Translations under genes and position numbers: made by a program
Shown: piece by piece, positions 29,290-37,127 of the stretch
Numbering within the stretch: the first letter of the stretch is position 1
Layout: each line of letters begins with the position of its first letter
The notes under the pieces: model-generated
What the model was told of the DNA's origin: nothing
Seen by the model: the letters and a program-made list of their open reading frames with translations, nothing else
Databases searched by the model: none
Assembly (NCBI GenBank): GCA_031315995.1
Contig: JALDRG010000002.1
Location: 248,001 to 312,000 of the forward strand
Direction: 5' to 3'
Source: Nitrospira sp.
GTDB lineage: Bacteria; Nitrospirota; Nitrospiria; Nitrospirales; Nitrospiraceae
DNA length: 64,000 nucleotides

Positions 29290-30933
29290 CTAGCGATCCG
29301 CCAGCAGCAATTTATACTCAATGCTATCCGCCAGCGCCTGCCAACTAGCCTCCATGATGTTTTCCGACACACCGACCGTTCCCCACTTGTCCTTGTGATC
29401 TCCGGACTCGATAAGGACGCGCACCTTCGATTCCGTTCCCTTATCAGCGGAGAGCACACGCACTTTATAGTCGAGGAGTTTCACTTCGCGAAGTTGCGGA
29501 TAGAACTTTTCCAACGCCTTGCGGAGCGCATGGTCGAGCGCATTGACCGGTCCGGCCCCCACGGCCGCCGTGTGTTCGATCACGTCGCCGACGTTGACCA
29601 TCACCGTCGCTTCAGACAACAGCAAGCCCTGCTCCTGTTTCTTCTCGACGATGACTCGGAACCCGAGGAGCTGAAAGGACGGGCGATGACTCCCCATTGC
29701 TTTGCGCATCAATAGCTCAAACGATCCTTCCGCGCCTTCGAATTGATACCCTTGGCTTTCGCGCTCCTTGAGCGTCTCGACCAATTCCTGCACCTTCGCG
29801 TGATTCTTGCTCAGCGAAATGCCGTACGCTTCAACTTTTTCCAAGAGCCCGCTGCGTCCGGCATAGTCCGATACCAAGATCCGACGACGGTTTCCCACCG
29901 CTACCGGATCGATGTGTTCATACGTCGCCGCGTTCTTGAGCACGGCATGAATATGGACGCCTCCCTTGTGCGCGAAAGCCGCATCCCCGACATAGGGCTG
30001 CCGCTTGTTAGGCATCAGGTTGGCAATCTCCGTCACGAACCCGGACACATCTTTCAGGCGCGTCAGCTTGCTCCCAACGGCAGTTCGCTGCATTTTCAGC
30101 TGTAGATTGGGAATGATGGAACAGAGATTGGCATTGCCACACCGCTCGCCGATCCCGTTGATCGTGCCCTGCACTTGCAGAATCCCGGACTCCACGGCCA
30201 CCAACGAGTTGGCCACCGCCATTTCGCTGTCGTTGTGTGCATGGATCCCCAACGGGACGGGACATTCCTGCTTGACGACGCGGCAAATTTCGCGGATTTC
30301 CCAGGGCATCGTTCCGCCGTTGGTGTCGCAGAGAATCACCCGCTCGGCTCCGCCGGCAATCGCTCTACGGATCGTCTGCAATGCATACTCGGGATTGGCC
30401 TTATAGCCGTCGAAGAAATGCTCGGCATCGTAAAACACCCGACGATCCTTGGACCGAAGGTAATGAATCGAGTCTTCGATCAACTCCAAGTTTTTCGCGA
30501 GCGTAATACCCAGCGCGTCCGTTACCTGAAACGACCAACTTTTGCCGAACAGCGTAATGGTCGGCGTCTCAGATGCCAGCAACGATTGAAGATTCTTGTC
30601 TTTCCGAACGGAATTACTGGCCTTTCGTGTCGAGCCGAACGCCACAACGGTCGCATGCTTGAAGGGGATGGTCTTGACCATCCGAAAGAACTCGATATCT
30701 TTTGGGTTCGCGCCCGGCCACCCACCCTCAATGAAATGCACCCCGAGTTCATCGAGCTGTTGGGCAACGCGGAGCTTATCCTCTACGGAGAAACTCACAT
30801 CCTCTGCCTGTGCTCCATCCCGCAAGGTCGTATCGTAAATTTCGAGTGCGGCGGCCTGCGCAGGCGGGAGAGTCGGCACCGAAACACCCTCCGATGGGCG
30901 AGATCGACGCGATGTTGTATTTCGACGTTTCAT
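29290..30933 (-). CDS. cimA: (R)-citramalate synthase
   Basis: LEIYDTTLRDGAQAEDVSFSVEDKL, GGWPGANPKDIEFF, GIHAHNDSEMAVANSL, LeuA dimer-type C-terminus; start at MKRRNTTS. Confidence 0.92.
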   Translation of the reverse strand: MKRRNTTSRRSRPSEGVSVPTLPPAQAAALEIYDTTLRDGAQAEDVSFSVEDKLRVAQQLDELGVHFIEGGWPGANPKDIEFFRMVKTIPFKHATVVAFGSTRKASNSVRKDKNLQSLLASETPTITLFGKSWSFQVTDALGITLAKNLELIEDSIHYLRSKDRRVFYDAEHFFDGYKANPEYALQTIRRAIAGGAERVILCDTNGGTMPWEIREICRVVKQECPVPLGIHAHNDSEMAVANSLVAVESGILQVQGTINGIGERCGNANLCSIIPNLQLKMQRTAVGSKLTRLKDVSGFVTEIANLMPNKRQPYVGDAAFAHKGGVHIHAVLKNAATYEHIDPVAVGNRRRILVSDYAGRSGLLEKVEAYGISLSKNHAKVQELVETLKERESQGYQFEGAEGSFELLMRKAMGSHRPSFQLLGFRVIVEKKQEQGLLLSEATVMVNVGDVIEHTAAVGAGPVNALDHALRKALEKFYPQLREVKLLDYKVRVLSADKGTESKVRVLIESGDHKDKWGTVGVSENIMEASWQALADSIEYKLLLADR

Positions 30934-31008
30934 AGGCGTGAGAGTAGCAGGGTCATCACTGACCTGTCGAGGAGACGACCGGACCGGCAGTCGCCTCACT
31001 TCGGCACA

Positions 31009-32244
31009 CTAGCCAAGCGCCGGCGCCGAGACCCGATCCAGGCCGAACGCTGTGTGAAGCGTGCGCATGGCCAATTCCAGATACTTTTCCTCGATGACAC
31101 AGGAGATTTTGATCTCGGATGTACTGATCATCATGATATTCACGCCCTCGCGCGAGAGCACATCGAACATCCCGGCCGCCACCCCGGAATGCGACCGCAT
31201 GCCGACCCCAATGAGCGACACCTTCGCGATAGACTCCGTCACCGCCACCGACCGGGCGCCGATCTCCTCGGACAGGCGCTGAACCAGATCGACGGCGCTG
31301 CGCAAGTCCGCCTTGGGGACCGTGAAGGAAATATCGGTCATGGATGCCTGACTGACATTTTGGATGATCATATCCACCACGATATTGGCTTTGGCCACGG
31401 CACCGAACACGCGCGCGGCGATACCTGGGCGATCCGGCACACCGACAATCGTAATTTTGGCCTGATTGCGGTCTCCCGTCACACCCGACACCATGACCCC
31501 TTCCATATCGGCATCTTCACGTGTCACGAGCGTTCCCCTTCCTTCCTTGAAGCTGGAATTGACTTCCACCGGCACGGAATACTTCGCCGCAAACTCGACC
31601 GAACGACTCTGCAGCACCTTGGCGCCGAGGCTCGCCATTTCCAGCATTTCTTCGTAGGAGATCTTCTCCAGGCGACGCGCCGCCGGCACGATGTTCGGAT
31701 CGGCGGTATACACACCATCTACATCCGTATAAATGATGCAGCGATCGGCCTTGAGCGCCGCAGCCAACGCAACGGCTGTGAGATCCGATCCTCCCCGACC
31801 CAAGGTTGTGACATCCGAGCTGGCGTTGATACCCTGGAAGCCCGCCACGACGGGAATCACGCCTGCCGACAAGGCGTCCTTGATACGTTCGGCCGTGACG
31901 CGGGAAATCCTGGCTTTGGTGTGGGCACTGTCGGTGTGAATGCCGACCTGTCGGCCGGTGAAGGATCGGGCGTTCACCCCTCGCCCCCGCAATTCCATGG
32001 CCAGCAACGCAATGGTGACCCGCTCCCCCGTTGAGAGCAGCATGTCCAATTCACGTTCATCCGGCGCGCCGGTCACGTCCTGCGCCAGCTTGAGCAGTCG
32101 ATCCGTTTCCCCGCTCATCGCCGACAACACCACAACCACCTGGTGTCCGTCTTTGGACACGCGTTCGACCCGTTCAGCGACGCGATGGATCCTCTCGACC
32201 GTACCGACGGATGTTCCACCGTATTTTTGAACGATCAACGCCAC
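31009..32244 (-). CDS. lysC: Aspartate kinase
   Basis: [36 protein letters not shown], two ACT-type regions. Confidence 0.96.
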
Positions 32245-32248
32245 AACA

Positions 32249-33499
32249 CTACACTCCGCGCGGGAACAAGCGCATCATCACTTTGGTCGCATCACGCGGC
32301 GCGGTCCCGGCAATGTTCGCATCATGCTCATGAAACCGCGTCGTGACTCCGGCCGACGGCGGCGTCGCGCCATCGCAAAGCGCGTACAGGATCGGCGGAT
32401 CCTCAGAACCGTGGCCCTTCGTCAGTCCAGGGTCACACACCACAAGCAGTCGATACGCCGGATGCGTCGTCAATGCCGCGAGAATCGGCCCGACAACCTG
32501 GGCATCGAACCGCTCAATCGCCCGAACCTTGTCTTGCACATCGGTCGCGTGAAGCACGTCGTCGGAAAGCCCGGCATGGAGGTAGACAAAGTCTTTCTTC
32601 CCCAACTCCTGCACCGCCGTCTCCACACAACCTGAGAACTCATTCGATTCGTTCTCGCCGTCGACCGGAAGCTCGACCGCTTCCAATCCGGCGCACACCC
32701 CAACCCCGCGATGCACATCGCTGGAAGACACCACCGTACCGGCAATCTGGTAACGCTCCGTCAAGGGCGGCCACAATGGAGCGCGACCCTGGCCCCACAA
32801 CCACAAGCAATTGGCCGGCTTCAATCCCTCCTGCTCACGCTCCTCATTCACCGGATGATCGCGCAAGATGAAGAACGCCGCGTCCATGAGCTTGCGTAAC
32901 ACATCGGCGCCGTCACCACTCGGGAGGGCTTCGGCTATCGACCGGCCGACCAACGTCTGGGGATCGAGACAGGTCGCGCGCGATTTTCCCCCAACCCACA
33001 CCATGAGATGCCGATGCCCGGAACCGGGATAGAACTGGATCGACTCCGAGCCAAGCTGCTCGTTCACGGCTTCGAGCAACTCGCGAGCTTGCTCCGTATC
33101 GATGAGACCGGCGGTCGCATCCTCCATAAGGACGTGCAGCCCCAGCTTCTTGATGTCCGCCGCCCGATCATTATTGCCGGACGCGGCTTCCCCACGCACC
33201 GTCACCATGGTGCAACGAAACACCACGTCCTGCTCACCCACCGTGACACCTAAACCGGCGGCCTCCAGCGGGCCGGGACCCGGATAATACTTCTTGGGAT
33301 CATATCCCAGCACGGCCACACTGGTGACATCGCTCCCAGCGGTTCCCGCGTCCGAGGGAAGACTCAAGAGTCCCACTTCGCTTCGCTGGGCAATCTGGTC
33401 GAGATGCGGAGTGGCGGCCGCCTGAAGCGGTGTTTTCCCGCCGAGTTCCGGACATGAGACATCGGCCATCCCGTCGGCATGCAGGATCAAATATTTCAT
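32249..33499 (-). CDS. ApgM-family (phosphoglycerate mutase-like) protein; probable alternative homoserine kinase
   Basis: [68 protein letters not shown]; located between thrC and lysC. Confidence 0.85.
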
Positions 33500-33517: not shown

Positions 33518-34576
33518 TCAGACATGAAGGAGGCGGGCCACATCGTCGCGGGTGGCTTTCACTGTTTGAGGCTGACGTGAAATGCTGATGGCCGTATCGG
33601 CATCCTTCAAACCATGCCCGGTCAACGTACATACGACCGTGGCACCTTCTTTTAAAAGCCCGGCTTGACTCAACTTAATGACACCGGCAACCGAGGTGGC
33701 GGATGCGGGTTCGCAAAAGACCCCTTCCTCCCTGGCCACCAACGCATACGCATGAAGAATTTCATCATCGGTGACCATATCAATGGCACCTGACGACTCT
33801 TTCACCGCGATAAGGGCGGCCTGCCAACTGGCCGGATTGCCGATTCTGATCGCGGTGGCCACAGTCTGCGGCTCTTCGACCACATGCCCCAGCACGATCG
33901 GCGCCGCGCCGGCGGCCTGGAATCCCATCATGCGAGGCATCCGCGTCGTTTGATTTGCAGCCCGATACTCCCGATAGCCATTCCAATAAGCCGTGATATT
34001 ACCCGCATTCCCTACAGGAAGTACATGGAGAGTCGGCGCGTCGCCGAGATCGTCACAAATTTCCATTGCCGCCGTCTTCTGTCCTTCGATCCGGAAGGGG
34101 TTCAGGGAGTTGACCAACTCAACCGGGTACGTCGCCGACAGCTCCTTGACGATGGTCAACGCCTGGTCGAAATTCCCCTCGACTTGAATGACGGTGGCCT
34201 GATGCATCATGGCCTGAGACAACTTGCCGAGCGCGATCTTTCCGGCAGGAATGAGCACATACACGGCAATTCCAGCCCGGGCTCCGTACGCAGCGGCCGA
34301 AGCCGAGGTGTTTCCGGTGGAGGCGCAAATGACCGCACGCGTGCCGCCCTCGACGGCCTTGGAGATCGCCATCGTCATGCCGCGATCTTTGAAGGACCCC
34401 GTCGGATTCATCCCCTCATACTTGAGGTAGAGATCCACCCCCGGCGCGATTTTCTTCCCGAGTCGCGCGGCACGTATCAGAGGAGTATTGCCCTCGCCCA
34501 GCGTGATCACAGACGTCTGTGCCGTCACGGGCAGGAACTTCCGATATTCTTCGATGATCCCACGCCAACGAGTCAT
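33518..34576 (-). CDS. thrC: Threonine synthase
   Basis: [35 protein letters not shown] (PLP lysine), [18 protein letters not shown]. Confidence 0.96.
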
Positions 34577-34620: not shown

Positions 34621-35934
34621 TCATTCATCTCGCCCTTCGACCCTGATCAGCGTCGCGGGCTCGGAGATGTAGGACAGTGGGTTGATTTCACGAAGCGCAT
34701 TCTGGACATCCCGCTCTCTGGCCATATGCGTCATGATCACCACCGGGACCGTTTGTCCTTCCTTGCGCCCTTGTTGCAACACCGAGGAAATGCTGATCCC
34801 ATACCGGCCCAATACTCCGGCAATCTGCGACAAGACACCGGGTCGGTCCAACACCATGAAACGAATGTAATAGAGCGAGGTAATTTCTTCCATCGGCCGC
34901 ATGCGCAATGGCCGTCGCTGCTCCGGCTGATACGCGGCGGGCGGAACCCGACCCGCTGCATTCTTGAGCACATTACGCCCAATGGCCATGACATCGCTTA
35001 CCACCGCACTCCCGGTCGGCATTGATCCGGCGCCGCGGCCGTAGAGCACCACGTCCTCAACCGCGTCGCCCACCAATTGAATGGCATTATAGACACCGTC
35101 TACCTTGGCGATTTGAGAGGCCGACGGCACCATCGTCGGATGCACGCGCGCCTCGATCTCGCCATCGGAATATTTTGCGATCGCCAGCAGCTTGATGGTA
35201 AACCCGAACTCCTTGGCATAAGCAATATCAAGGGGCGTGAGCCCGGTGATGCCTTCGGTGTAGATCTCTTTGAAATTGACCGGTGTGCCGTACGCCAAAC
35301 TGACCATGATCGTCAACTTATGCGCCGAATCGGTTCCCGCCACATCGAAGGTGGGATCGGCCTCGGCATAGCCGGCTCGTTTCGCCTCCTCCAACACGAG
35401 GTCGAACCGCTGCCCCTCACTGGTCATGCGGCTGAGAATGTAATTCGAGGTGCCATTGATTATCCCATAGATGGATTGGATATTGTTCGCGGCCAATCCT
35501 TCCATCAATGCGCGGACAACCGGAATCCCACCCCCGACGCTTGCCTCGAACCCGAGATCGACGCCGTGCCGGGAAGCCGCGGCAAAAATCTCCTCGCCAT
35601 GCACCGCAAGCAAGGCTTTGTTGGCCGTCACCACGTGCTTGCCTCGTTGCACGGCGTCCAAAATCACACGTTTGGCGAGATCATACCCACCCATCAACTC
35701 GATCACGATATCCACGCGTGGATCCGTGACGACCTGCTGAATGTCCGTGGTCAGCATTCCCGGCGGAATCGCAATGCCCCGGTCACGCGCGATGTCCAAG
35801 TCCGCAATACGAACCAGCTTGATGGGCACCCCTACCCGCCGACGAATCAGCTCAGCGTTTTCGATCAAGACCCGCGCGACGCCGGTGCCGACCGTTCCAA
35901 ACCCGATTAAACCGACGCCGATCTCACTTTTCAT
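34621..35934 (-). CDS. hom: Homoserine dehydrogenase with C-terminal ACT domain
   Basis: [58 protein letters not shown]-terminal ACT. Confidence 0.96.
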
Positions 35935-37127
35935 GATGCCTGATCATCCAAATTCAACACTTTCCGGATCCCGCGCAGAGCCTGGCGCGTGCGATGTTCG
36001 TTTTCTACCAGCGCAAACCGCACGAACTCATCTCCGCCTTCTCCGAACCCGATACCCGGCGACACCGCGACTTTGGCCTCCCGCAAAAGCAACTTTGAAA
36101 ATTCCAGCGATCCCATATGCCGGAAGGGGTCTGGGATACGAGCCCAGACGAACATAGTCGCTCGAGGTAACGCCACCGGCCATCCGATACGATTGAGCCC
36201 GTTCACAAGGACATTCCGTCGGTTTTGGTACCGCTGCACGACGTCCTTGACACAGTCTTGCGGCCCATTCAACGCGACCGTACTGGCGATCTGAATCGGT
36301 TGAAAAATACCATAGTCCAGATAACTTTTGAGCTTTGCGAGCGCGCCGATCACGTCGCGGTTTCCCACACAGAATCCGACTCGCCAGCCAGGCATATTGT
36401 AGGCCTTGGACAACGTATAAAATTCTACGCCCACATCTTTCGCTTCCGGCACTTGCAGAAAGCTCGGCGCCTTATAGCCGTCGAACGCAATATCGGCATA
36501 GGCCAGATCGTGAATCACGATCACATCATGTTCCTTGGCAAACGCGACGATCTTCTTGAAAAACTCAAGGTCAACCACCGCCGTGGTCGGATTGTGCGGA
36601 AAATTGATCACTAGAATGCGCGGCCGCGGTAACGTTTGGCGATAGACGCGCAACAGATCGTCAAAGAAATCGCTGTCTTGCCGTAGTTCGATCCCGCGCA
36701 CCTCGCCGCCCGCAATAATGAAACTATACATGTGGATGGGATAGGTCGGCGTCGGCGTGAGCACCACATCGCCGGGCCCAATCGTGGCCAACGCCAGGTG
36801 CGCAATACCCTCCTTGGAGCCGATCGTCACAATCGCTTCGGTTTCGGGATCCAGATCCACATCATAGTTCCGCTTGTACCAACCGGTGATGGCGTGACGC
36901 AATTTCGTGATCCCACGTGACGCGGAGTACCGATGGTTCTTGGCCTTCTTCGACGCCTCGATCAACTTGTCGACGATATGAGGGGGCGTGGGCTGATCCG
37001 GGTTGCCCATGCCGAAATCGATGATGTCCTCGCCCCGCTGACGCGCCTCCAGCTTGAGGGTTTGTACTTGCGCAAATACGTACGGGGGAAGTCGTTTTAT
37101 ACGGTAAAAGCCGTCGCCGATCGCCAT
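35931..37127 (-). CDS. Class I/II aminotransferase (AlaC/aspartate aminotransferase-like)
   Basis: [51 protein letters not shown]. Confidence 0.93.

Follow-up and report, generated by a model that had tools for sequence, protein, structure and literature searches.

The ApgM-like gene inside the threonine operon of this Nitrospira genome is best read as a descendant of the homoserine-kinase candidate that the TIGR02535 model describes, now encoding either a conserved pseudoenzyme or an enzyme that has been radically remodelled. Much of the catalytic metal site of this candidate threonine-step gene is gone, yet the gene is preserved by selection, and searches of the genome found no known replacement enzyme. 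Many prototrophs make threonine although no homoserine kinase is recognised in them, a long-standing gap for which TIGR02535 proteins are the leading candidate. Canonical members of the phylum Nitrospirota strengthen that candidacy through a near-perfect exclusion of ThrB, while the Nitrospirales break the TIGR02535 answer, since there the candidate is damaged or missing and no known substitute was found.

The window, by which we mean the whole stretch of 64,000 nucleotides analysed, belongs to the Nitrospira defluvii group, judging by its named relatives. Positions 32249-33499 are filled exactly by one minus-strand ORF that starts with ATG and has 416 codons, the plus-strand reading being ruled out by stop codons. 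The original prediction, which gave no strand, had placed an ApgM-like gene here in a hom-thrC-lysC operon, and both gene and operon were found as described. The operon genes, identified via NCBIfam, are tightly packed in the order aminotransferase-hom-thrC-ORF-lysC-cimA:

29290..30999, minus strand, cimA, citramalate synthase (TIGR00977, 768 bits)
31009..32244, minus strand, lysC, aspartate kinase (NCBIfam)
32249..33499, minus strand, ApgM/TIGR02535-like protein with an eroded metal site (416 aa)
33518..34576, minus strand, thrC, threonine synthase (TIGR00260, 320 bits)
34621..35934, minus strand, hom, homoserine dehydrogenase (PRK06349, 547 bits)
35931..37127, minus strand, alaC/dapL-like aminotransferase (NCBIfam)

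The same operon order is kept in N. defluvii, where the ORF has a homologue of 89% identity on chromosome FP929003.1, in N. moscoviensis (NZ_CP011801.1, 58% identity) and in further genera, so the arrangement is not due to chance. Rfam models found no leader RNA at the threonine operon. The view that every aspartate-to-threonine function except ThrB lies nearby was too strong, because neither the surroundings of the operon nor the tested ORFs of the window showed an aspartate-semialdehyde dehydrogenase gene (asd); asd is probably located elsewhere.

Profile searches gave a divided answer on family membership. The ORF protein scores 347.3 bits against TIGR00306 (ApgM), above the cut-off of 320, but this is a subfamily-level model that is not specific for an activity. 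Against TIGR02535, the 'proposed homoserine kinase' model, it reaches 337.7 bits and stays below the curated cut-off of 446.3. Thus, of the two models against which the original prediction had proposed a search, the protein passes the first and misses the second. Among Pfam families it matches PF10143 with 157 bits and, more weakly, the metalloenzyme family PF01676 with 51 bits. Its PDB relatives are archaeal ApgM enzymes, and the best PDB matches of AlphaFold2 models of the window protein and of a canonical relative are the archaeal ApgM structures 2zkt, 3kd8 and 3idd.

We searched the window's genome assembly (3.88 Mb, 93.6% complete) for other enzymes that might serve the homoserine-kinase step. 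No GHMP-type ThrB scores above cut-off, the best TIGR00191 score in the genome being the 40 bits of ispE; the only two GHMP kinases are ispE and an HddA-like sugar kinase, and both were rejected as ThrB. Nor does any APH-type or shikimate-kinase-type homoserine kinase pass a curated cut-off in this genome. Two APH-fold matches were rejected as ThrB type II, one being an AmgK-like gene followed by a nucleotidyltransferase gene (TIGR00938, 15 bits against a cut-off of 256) and the other an unnamed APH protein lacking a homoserine-kinase match. Two SKI matches were rejected as Desulfovibrio-type enzymes, namely an aroK adjoining aroE (NF040667, 99.6 bits against a cut-off of 197) and a gluconokinase. 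This unnamed APH-fold protein (386 aa; G000 contig C12:22648-23097; L005:1219-2379) has no curated NCBIfam match above cut-off and may be a small-molecule kinase. The genome does hold a separate cofactor-dependent gpmA (TIGR01258, 275 bits), and no iPGM_N domain was found in it. A thrB elsewhere combined with the lack of another phosphoglycerate mutase had been named as evidence against the homoserine-kinase idea; the genome shows the reverse, gpmA and no thrB. This, together with the near-exclusion of TIGR02535 and ThrB described below, also makes it probable that the automatic label of phosphoglycerate mutase is wrong, as the original prediction suspected.

Across the phylum, we scored 296 Nitrospirota genomes, 99 from the Nitrospirales and 197 from outside the window's order, and found TIGR02535 above cut-off in 141 and ThrB in 40. 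Outside the order, 138 genomes have TIGR02535 only, 38 have ThrB only, 19 have neither and two have both (Fisher p ~6e-24, with shared ancestry ignored); one of the latter two, G067, is 6% contaminated. The canonical Nitrospirota TIGR02535 genes adjoin thrC and/or lysC. The idea of an alternative homoserine kinase is thus well supported at the level of the phylum, and the near-exclusion is in line with the published view, a prediction, of BT2402 and its relatives as replacements for ThrB (PMC7311316, PMC9026213). Mutants of BT2402 are rescued by threonine, according to the GapMind paper (PMC7311316), but the cloned gene failed to complement a thrB mutant of E. coli (PMC7311316), so homoserine kinase activity is unproven even for BT2402.

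Within the class, all 15 genomes from outside the window's order have ThrB; the 99 of the Nitrospirales all lack it. Ten weak TIGR00191 matches in relatives were discarded: eight loci hold ispE-type frames, and the remaining two matches caught a neighbouring prs frame only. Two genomes of the class from outside the order carry ThrB beside a TIGR02535-type gene (loci L136 and L137), which is intact in G171 and eroded in G220, where three of seven catalytic residues are lost.

To describe the catalytic site we aligned 112 proteins, including 31 canonical Nitrospirota TIGR02535 proteins and 79 members of the window's order, and scored seven residues (D9, S56, D300, H304, D343, H344 and H353 in L092 numbering). 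We take these to be the equivalents of the metal ligands and nucleophile of iPGM, an assignment that rests on what is known of iPGM and on the alignment with 2zkt. The corresponding features of the window protein, with its cap domain, are:

33473..33475, minus strand, codon of Asp9 (iPGM Asp12 equivalent), kept in the window protein
33332..33334, minus strand, codon of Ser56 (nucleophile equivalent), kept here and lost in part of the order
32846..33391, minus strand, residues 37-218, profile match to the PF10143 (PhosphMutase) cap domain
32549..32563, minus strand, residues 313-317 with Asp313 and His317 (metal-1 ligand equivalents), kept in the genus
32393..32434, minus strand, residues 356-369, shortened remnant of the canonical DH...H loop, with Asp356 kept, Pro357 in place of His and the second His lost

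All seven residues are intact in 31/31 canonical proteins and in 0/79 members of the order. The window protein keeps five, having Pro at the H344 position and no H353. Both C-terminal metal-site histidines are lost throughout its genus (26/26, with Pro at the H344 position in 26/26), which amounts to one histidine from each presumed metal site, while D9 (with one exception), S56, D313, H317 and D356 are kept, so that at most five of seven remain. Among 44 proteins from other genera of the family, Asp at D9 is found in 17, Ser at S56 in 33, His at H317 in 18 and His at the H344 position in 19, and none has His at the H353 position. The number of intact residues per protein is 1-5 of seven in these genera, 5-6 in the sister family f2, where Asn replaces D343 in 6/6, and 1-2 in family f3; the N. 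moscoviensis homologue (L180) has Glu at D9 and lacks H353. The metallo-phosphotransferase site has, in short, been lost piecemeal in the Nitrospirales descendant.

We considered whether an alignment error lay behind the lost ligands and rejected it, since each protein of the window's family has a DH...H loop that is plainly shorter or altered, and 6/26 members of the genus also lack the neighbouring His363. AlphaFold2 models the window protein with a mean pLDDT of 88.8 and gives residues 362-364, inside the loop remnant, values below 50; the canonical relative is modelled with a mean of 95.4 and has no low-confidence segment. On the tree we counted 11 state changes for S56, 7 for D9 and 7 for H344 (approximate counts, the tree coming from a quick search and having some long branches), from which it follows that erosion was repeated and that several losses were independent. 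The entropy of the ligand columns within the family lies at the 30th-96th percentile, that is, at the variability of an average site or above, while the same columns are invariant in the canonical set. In BT2402, for comparison, the zinc sites are fully conserved (PMC9765024).

Erosion of the site is not matched by decay of the gene. The frame is open in almost every member of the window's family, and the median dN/dS is 0.083 in the genus against 0.106 in the canonical set (by a simple counting method, with dS near saturation), so the ORF is not simply decaying. Most cap columns are invariant across the 70 proteins of the family, including E79, R95, H164, N218, R221, W233 and D261, the first four of which are also invariant in canonical relatives. 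Relative to lysC and thrC, the ORF evolves at about 3x in the order versus about 1.5x in canonical genomes. The pattern of rate and invariance suggests a change of constraint, not decay.

In three genera the gene has gone altogether. Genera g11 and g16 (family f3) and g12 (family f4) have the same collinear operon, in which thrC is followed directly by lysC and the ApgM-like gene is cleanly deleted (loci L122, L124-L126, L129, L131 and L132). Their genomes hold no match to the ORF protein and no ThrB above cut-off, the weak matches that were inspected being ispE-type. With both absent, another homoserine kinase must act there, if the usual threonine route is followed. A further copy, in G060 (L057:5986-7029), contains four stops (3 TGA and 1 TAG); the frame is open in G050 of the same genus. 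An f4 genome has, between lysC and cimA, a gene that by reading of its sequence appears to be SUMF1/formylglycine-generating-enzyme-like (L126:8272-9258). At L134:7229-10200 and L123:3012-8391 there is a second threonine-synthase paralogue of about 413 aa, 35% identical, with small sulfur-carrier-like and NIL-like ORFs beside it at L134 and cysM- and moeB-like genes at L123; these neighbours suggest a link to sulfur amino acid synthesis. One plausible, though unproven, course of events is that the TIGR02535 gene became redundant through ThrB early in the class and its site then eroded; the order would later have lost ThrB too, after the step had come to be done by something else.

The broken metal site, the missed TIGR02535 cut-off and the loss of the gene with no gain of ThrB together make a metal-dependent homoserine kinase unlikely here. 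The site damage, the exclusion pattern, the selection and the losses of the gene are results; that activity has gone, that a ligand is bound and that a further kinase exists are inferred. We think the chances slightly favour a selected pseudoenzyme accompanied in the Nitrospirales by a separate homoserine kinase of another kind; that the order makes threonine via an undiscovered homoserine kinase and has kept the ancestral TIGR02535 enzyme as a selected ligand-binding or regulatory pseudoenzyme is, we judge, a little short of an even chance. The ORF would then be a vertically inherited Nitrospirales descendant of the threonine-operon TIGR02535 protein of other Nitrospirota. Its product would no longer perform the family's presumed phosphotransfer by serine and two metals, and would most likely persist as a non-catalytic pathway partner. 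The cap domain may still bind homoserine or O-phosphohomoserine as a pathway ligand, and the protein could stabilise or regulate Hom, ThrC or the true kinase, with the homoserine-kinase step of the order being carried out by an enzyme presumably outside the four families recognised today. Against the pseudoenzyme reading count the failure to find a replacement kinase; the exclusion between TIGR02535 and ThrB elsewhere in the phylum and the absence of ThrB from all 99 genomes of the order, which leave the ORF as the only positional candidate where it is present; and the near fixation of five of the seven ligands in the window's genus, where 55% of all sites are likewise nearly fixed. Genera without the ORF could also have gained a kinase of their own separately.

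The most serious competitor, which we regard as unlikely, is that the ORF protein is still a homoserine kinase whose site has been remodelled (to a single metal or no metal, with cap residues partly catalytic) and which uses an unknown phosphate donor. It would explain the threonine-operon position, the absence of ThrB from 99/99 Nitrospirales genomes, the exclusion of ThrB by canonical members and the strong purifying selection with invariant cap residues, but it fits poorly with a family in which the Ser nucleophile, Asp9, His317 and both loop histidines vary, with three genera that have neither the gene nor ThrB, with the eroded copy that G220 has alongside ThrB, and with the failure of even intact BT2402 to complement E. 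coli thrB (PMC7311316). The prediction of an alternative homoserine kinase is well supported for the phylum, and in this genome gains from the lack of ThrB and the separate gpmA, but for the ORF itself it is weakened by the missed cut-off, the broken site and the dropping of the gene elsewhere. It is less probable still that the ORF is a functionless relict heading to loss, made redundant by a different homoserine kinase that has taken its place. Clean deletions in three genera, the interrupted G060 copy and evolution faster than that of neighbouring genes are what such a relict would show; a dN/dS below the canonical value, open frames in nearly all family members and cap residues mostly invariant over 70 proteins are not. 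We consider it very improbable that the automatic label is right and the ORF encodes a genuine cofactor-independent phosphoglycerate mutase: the TIGR00306 cut-off is passed and the nearest solved structures are archaeal ApgM, but there is a separate gpmA, the gene is locked in a threonine operon, the metal site is broken and the Nitrospirota proteins closest to it are TIGR02535 members.

N. moscoviensis can grow with CO2 on a mineral medium, and threonine is present in its biomass (PMC8407350), so threonine is made and the homoserine-kinase step is done by something. To label the ORF either phosphoglycerate mutase or homoserine kinase would hide a gap in an ecologically central group, and our literature search found no paper linking Nitrospira with an ApgM/TIGR02535-like gene. 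By comparing the intact with the eroded homologues, the function of the family can be tested cleanly.

Compared with known systems, the ORF is closest to the TIGR02535 proteins (BT2402, ThrB2), with which it shares fold, length, the operon partners thrC and lysC and a genome lacking ThrB, and the family tree groups it with the Nitrospirota members; unlike them it falls short of the cut-off (338 against 446 bits), lacks 2/7 catalytic or metal residues, has a shortened two-histidine loop and belongs to a gene lost in parts of the Nitrospirales. With archaeal ApgM (TIGR00306; 2zkt, 3kd8, 3idd) it has in common the two-domain alkaline-phosphatase-superfamily fold and the PF10143 cap, but it sits in a bacterial threonine operon, in a genome with a separate gpmA, and its metal site is incomplete. 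GHMP ThrB (TIGR00191) shares the presumed pathway step but has an unrelated fold and is absent from all 99 Nitrospirales genomes. The shikimate-kinase-like homoserine kinase of Desulfovibrio (NF040667; PMC5764234) provides the parallel of a non-orthologous homoserine kinase, whereas the window's genome has only the aroK beside aroE, at 99.6 bits, and the gluconokinase.
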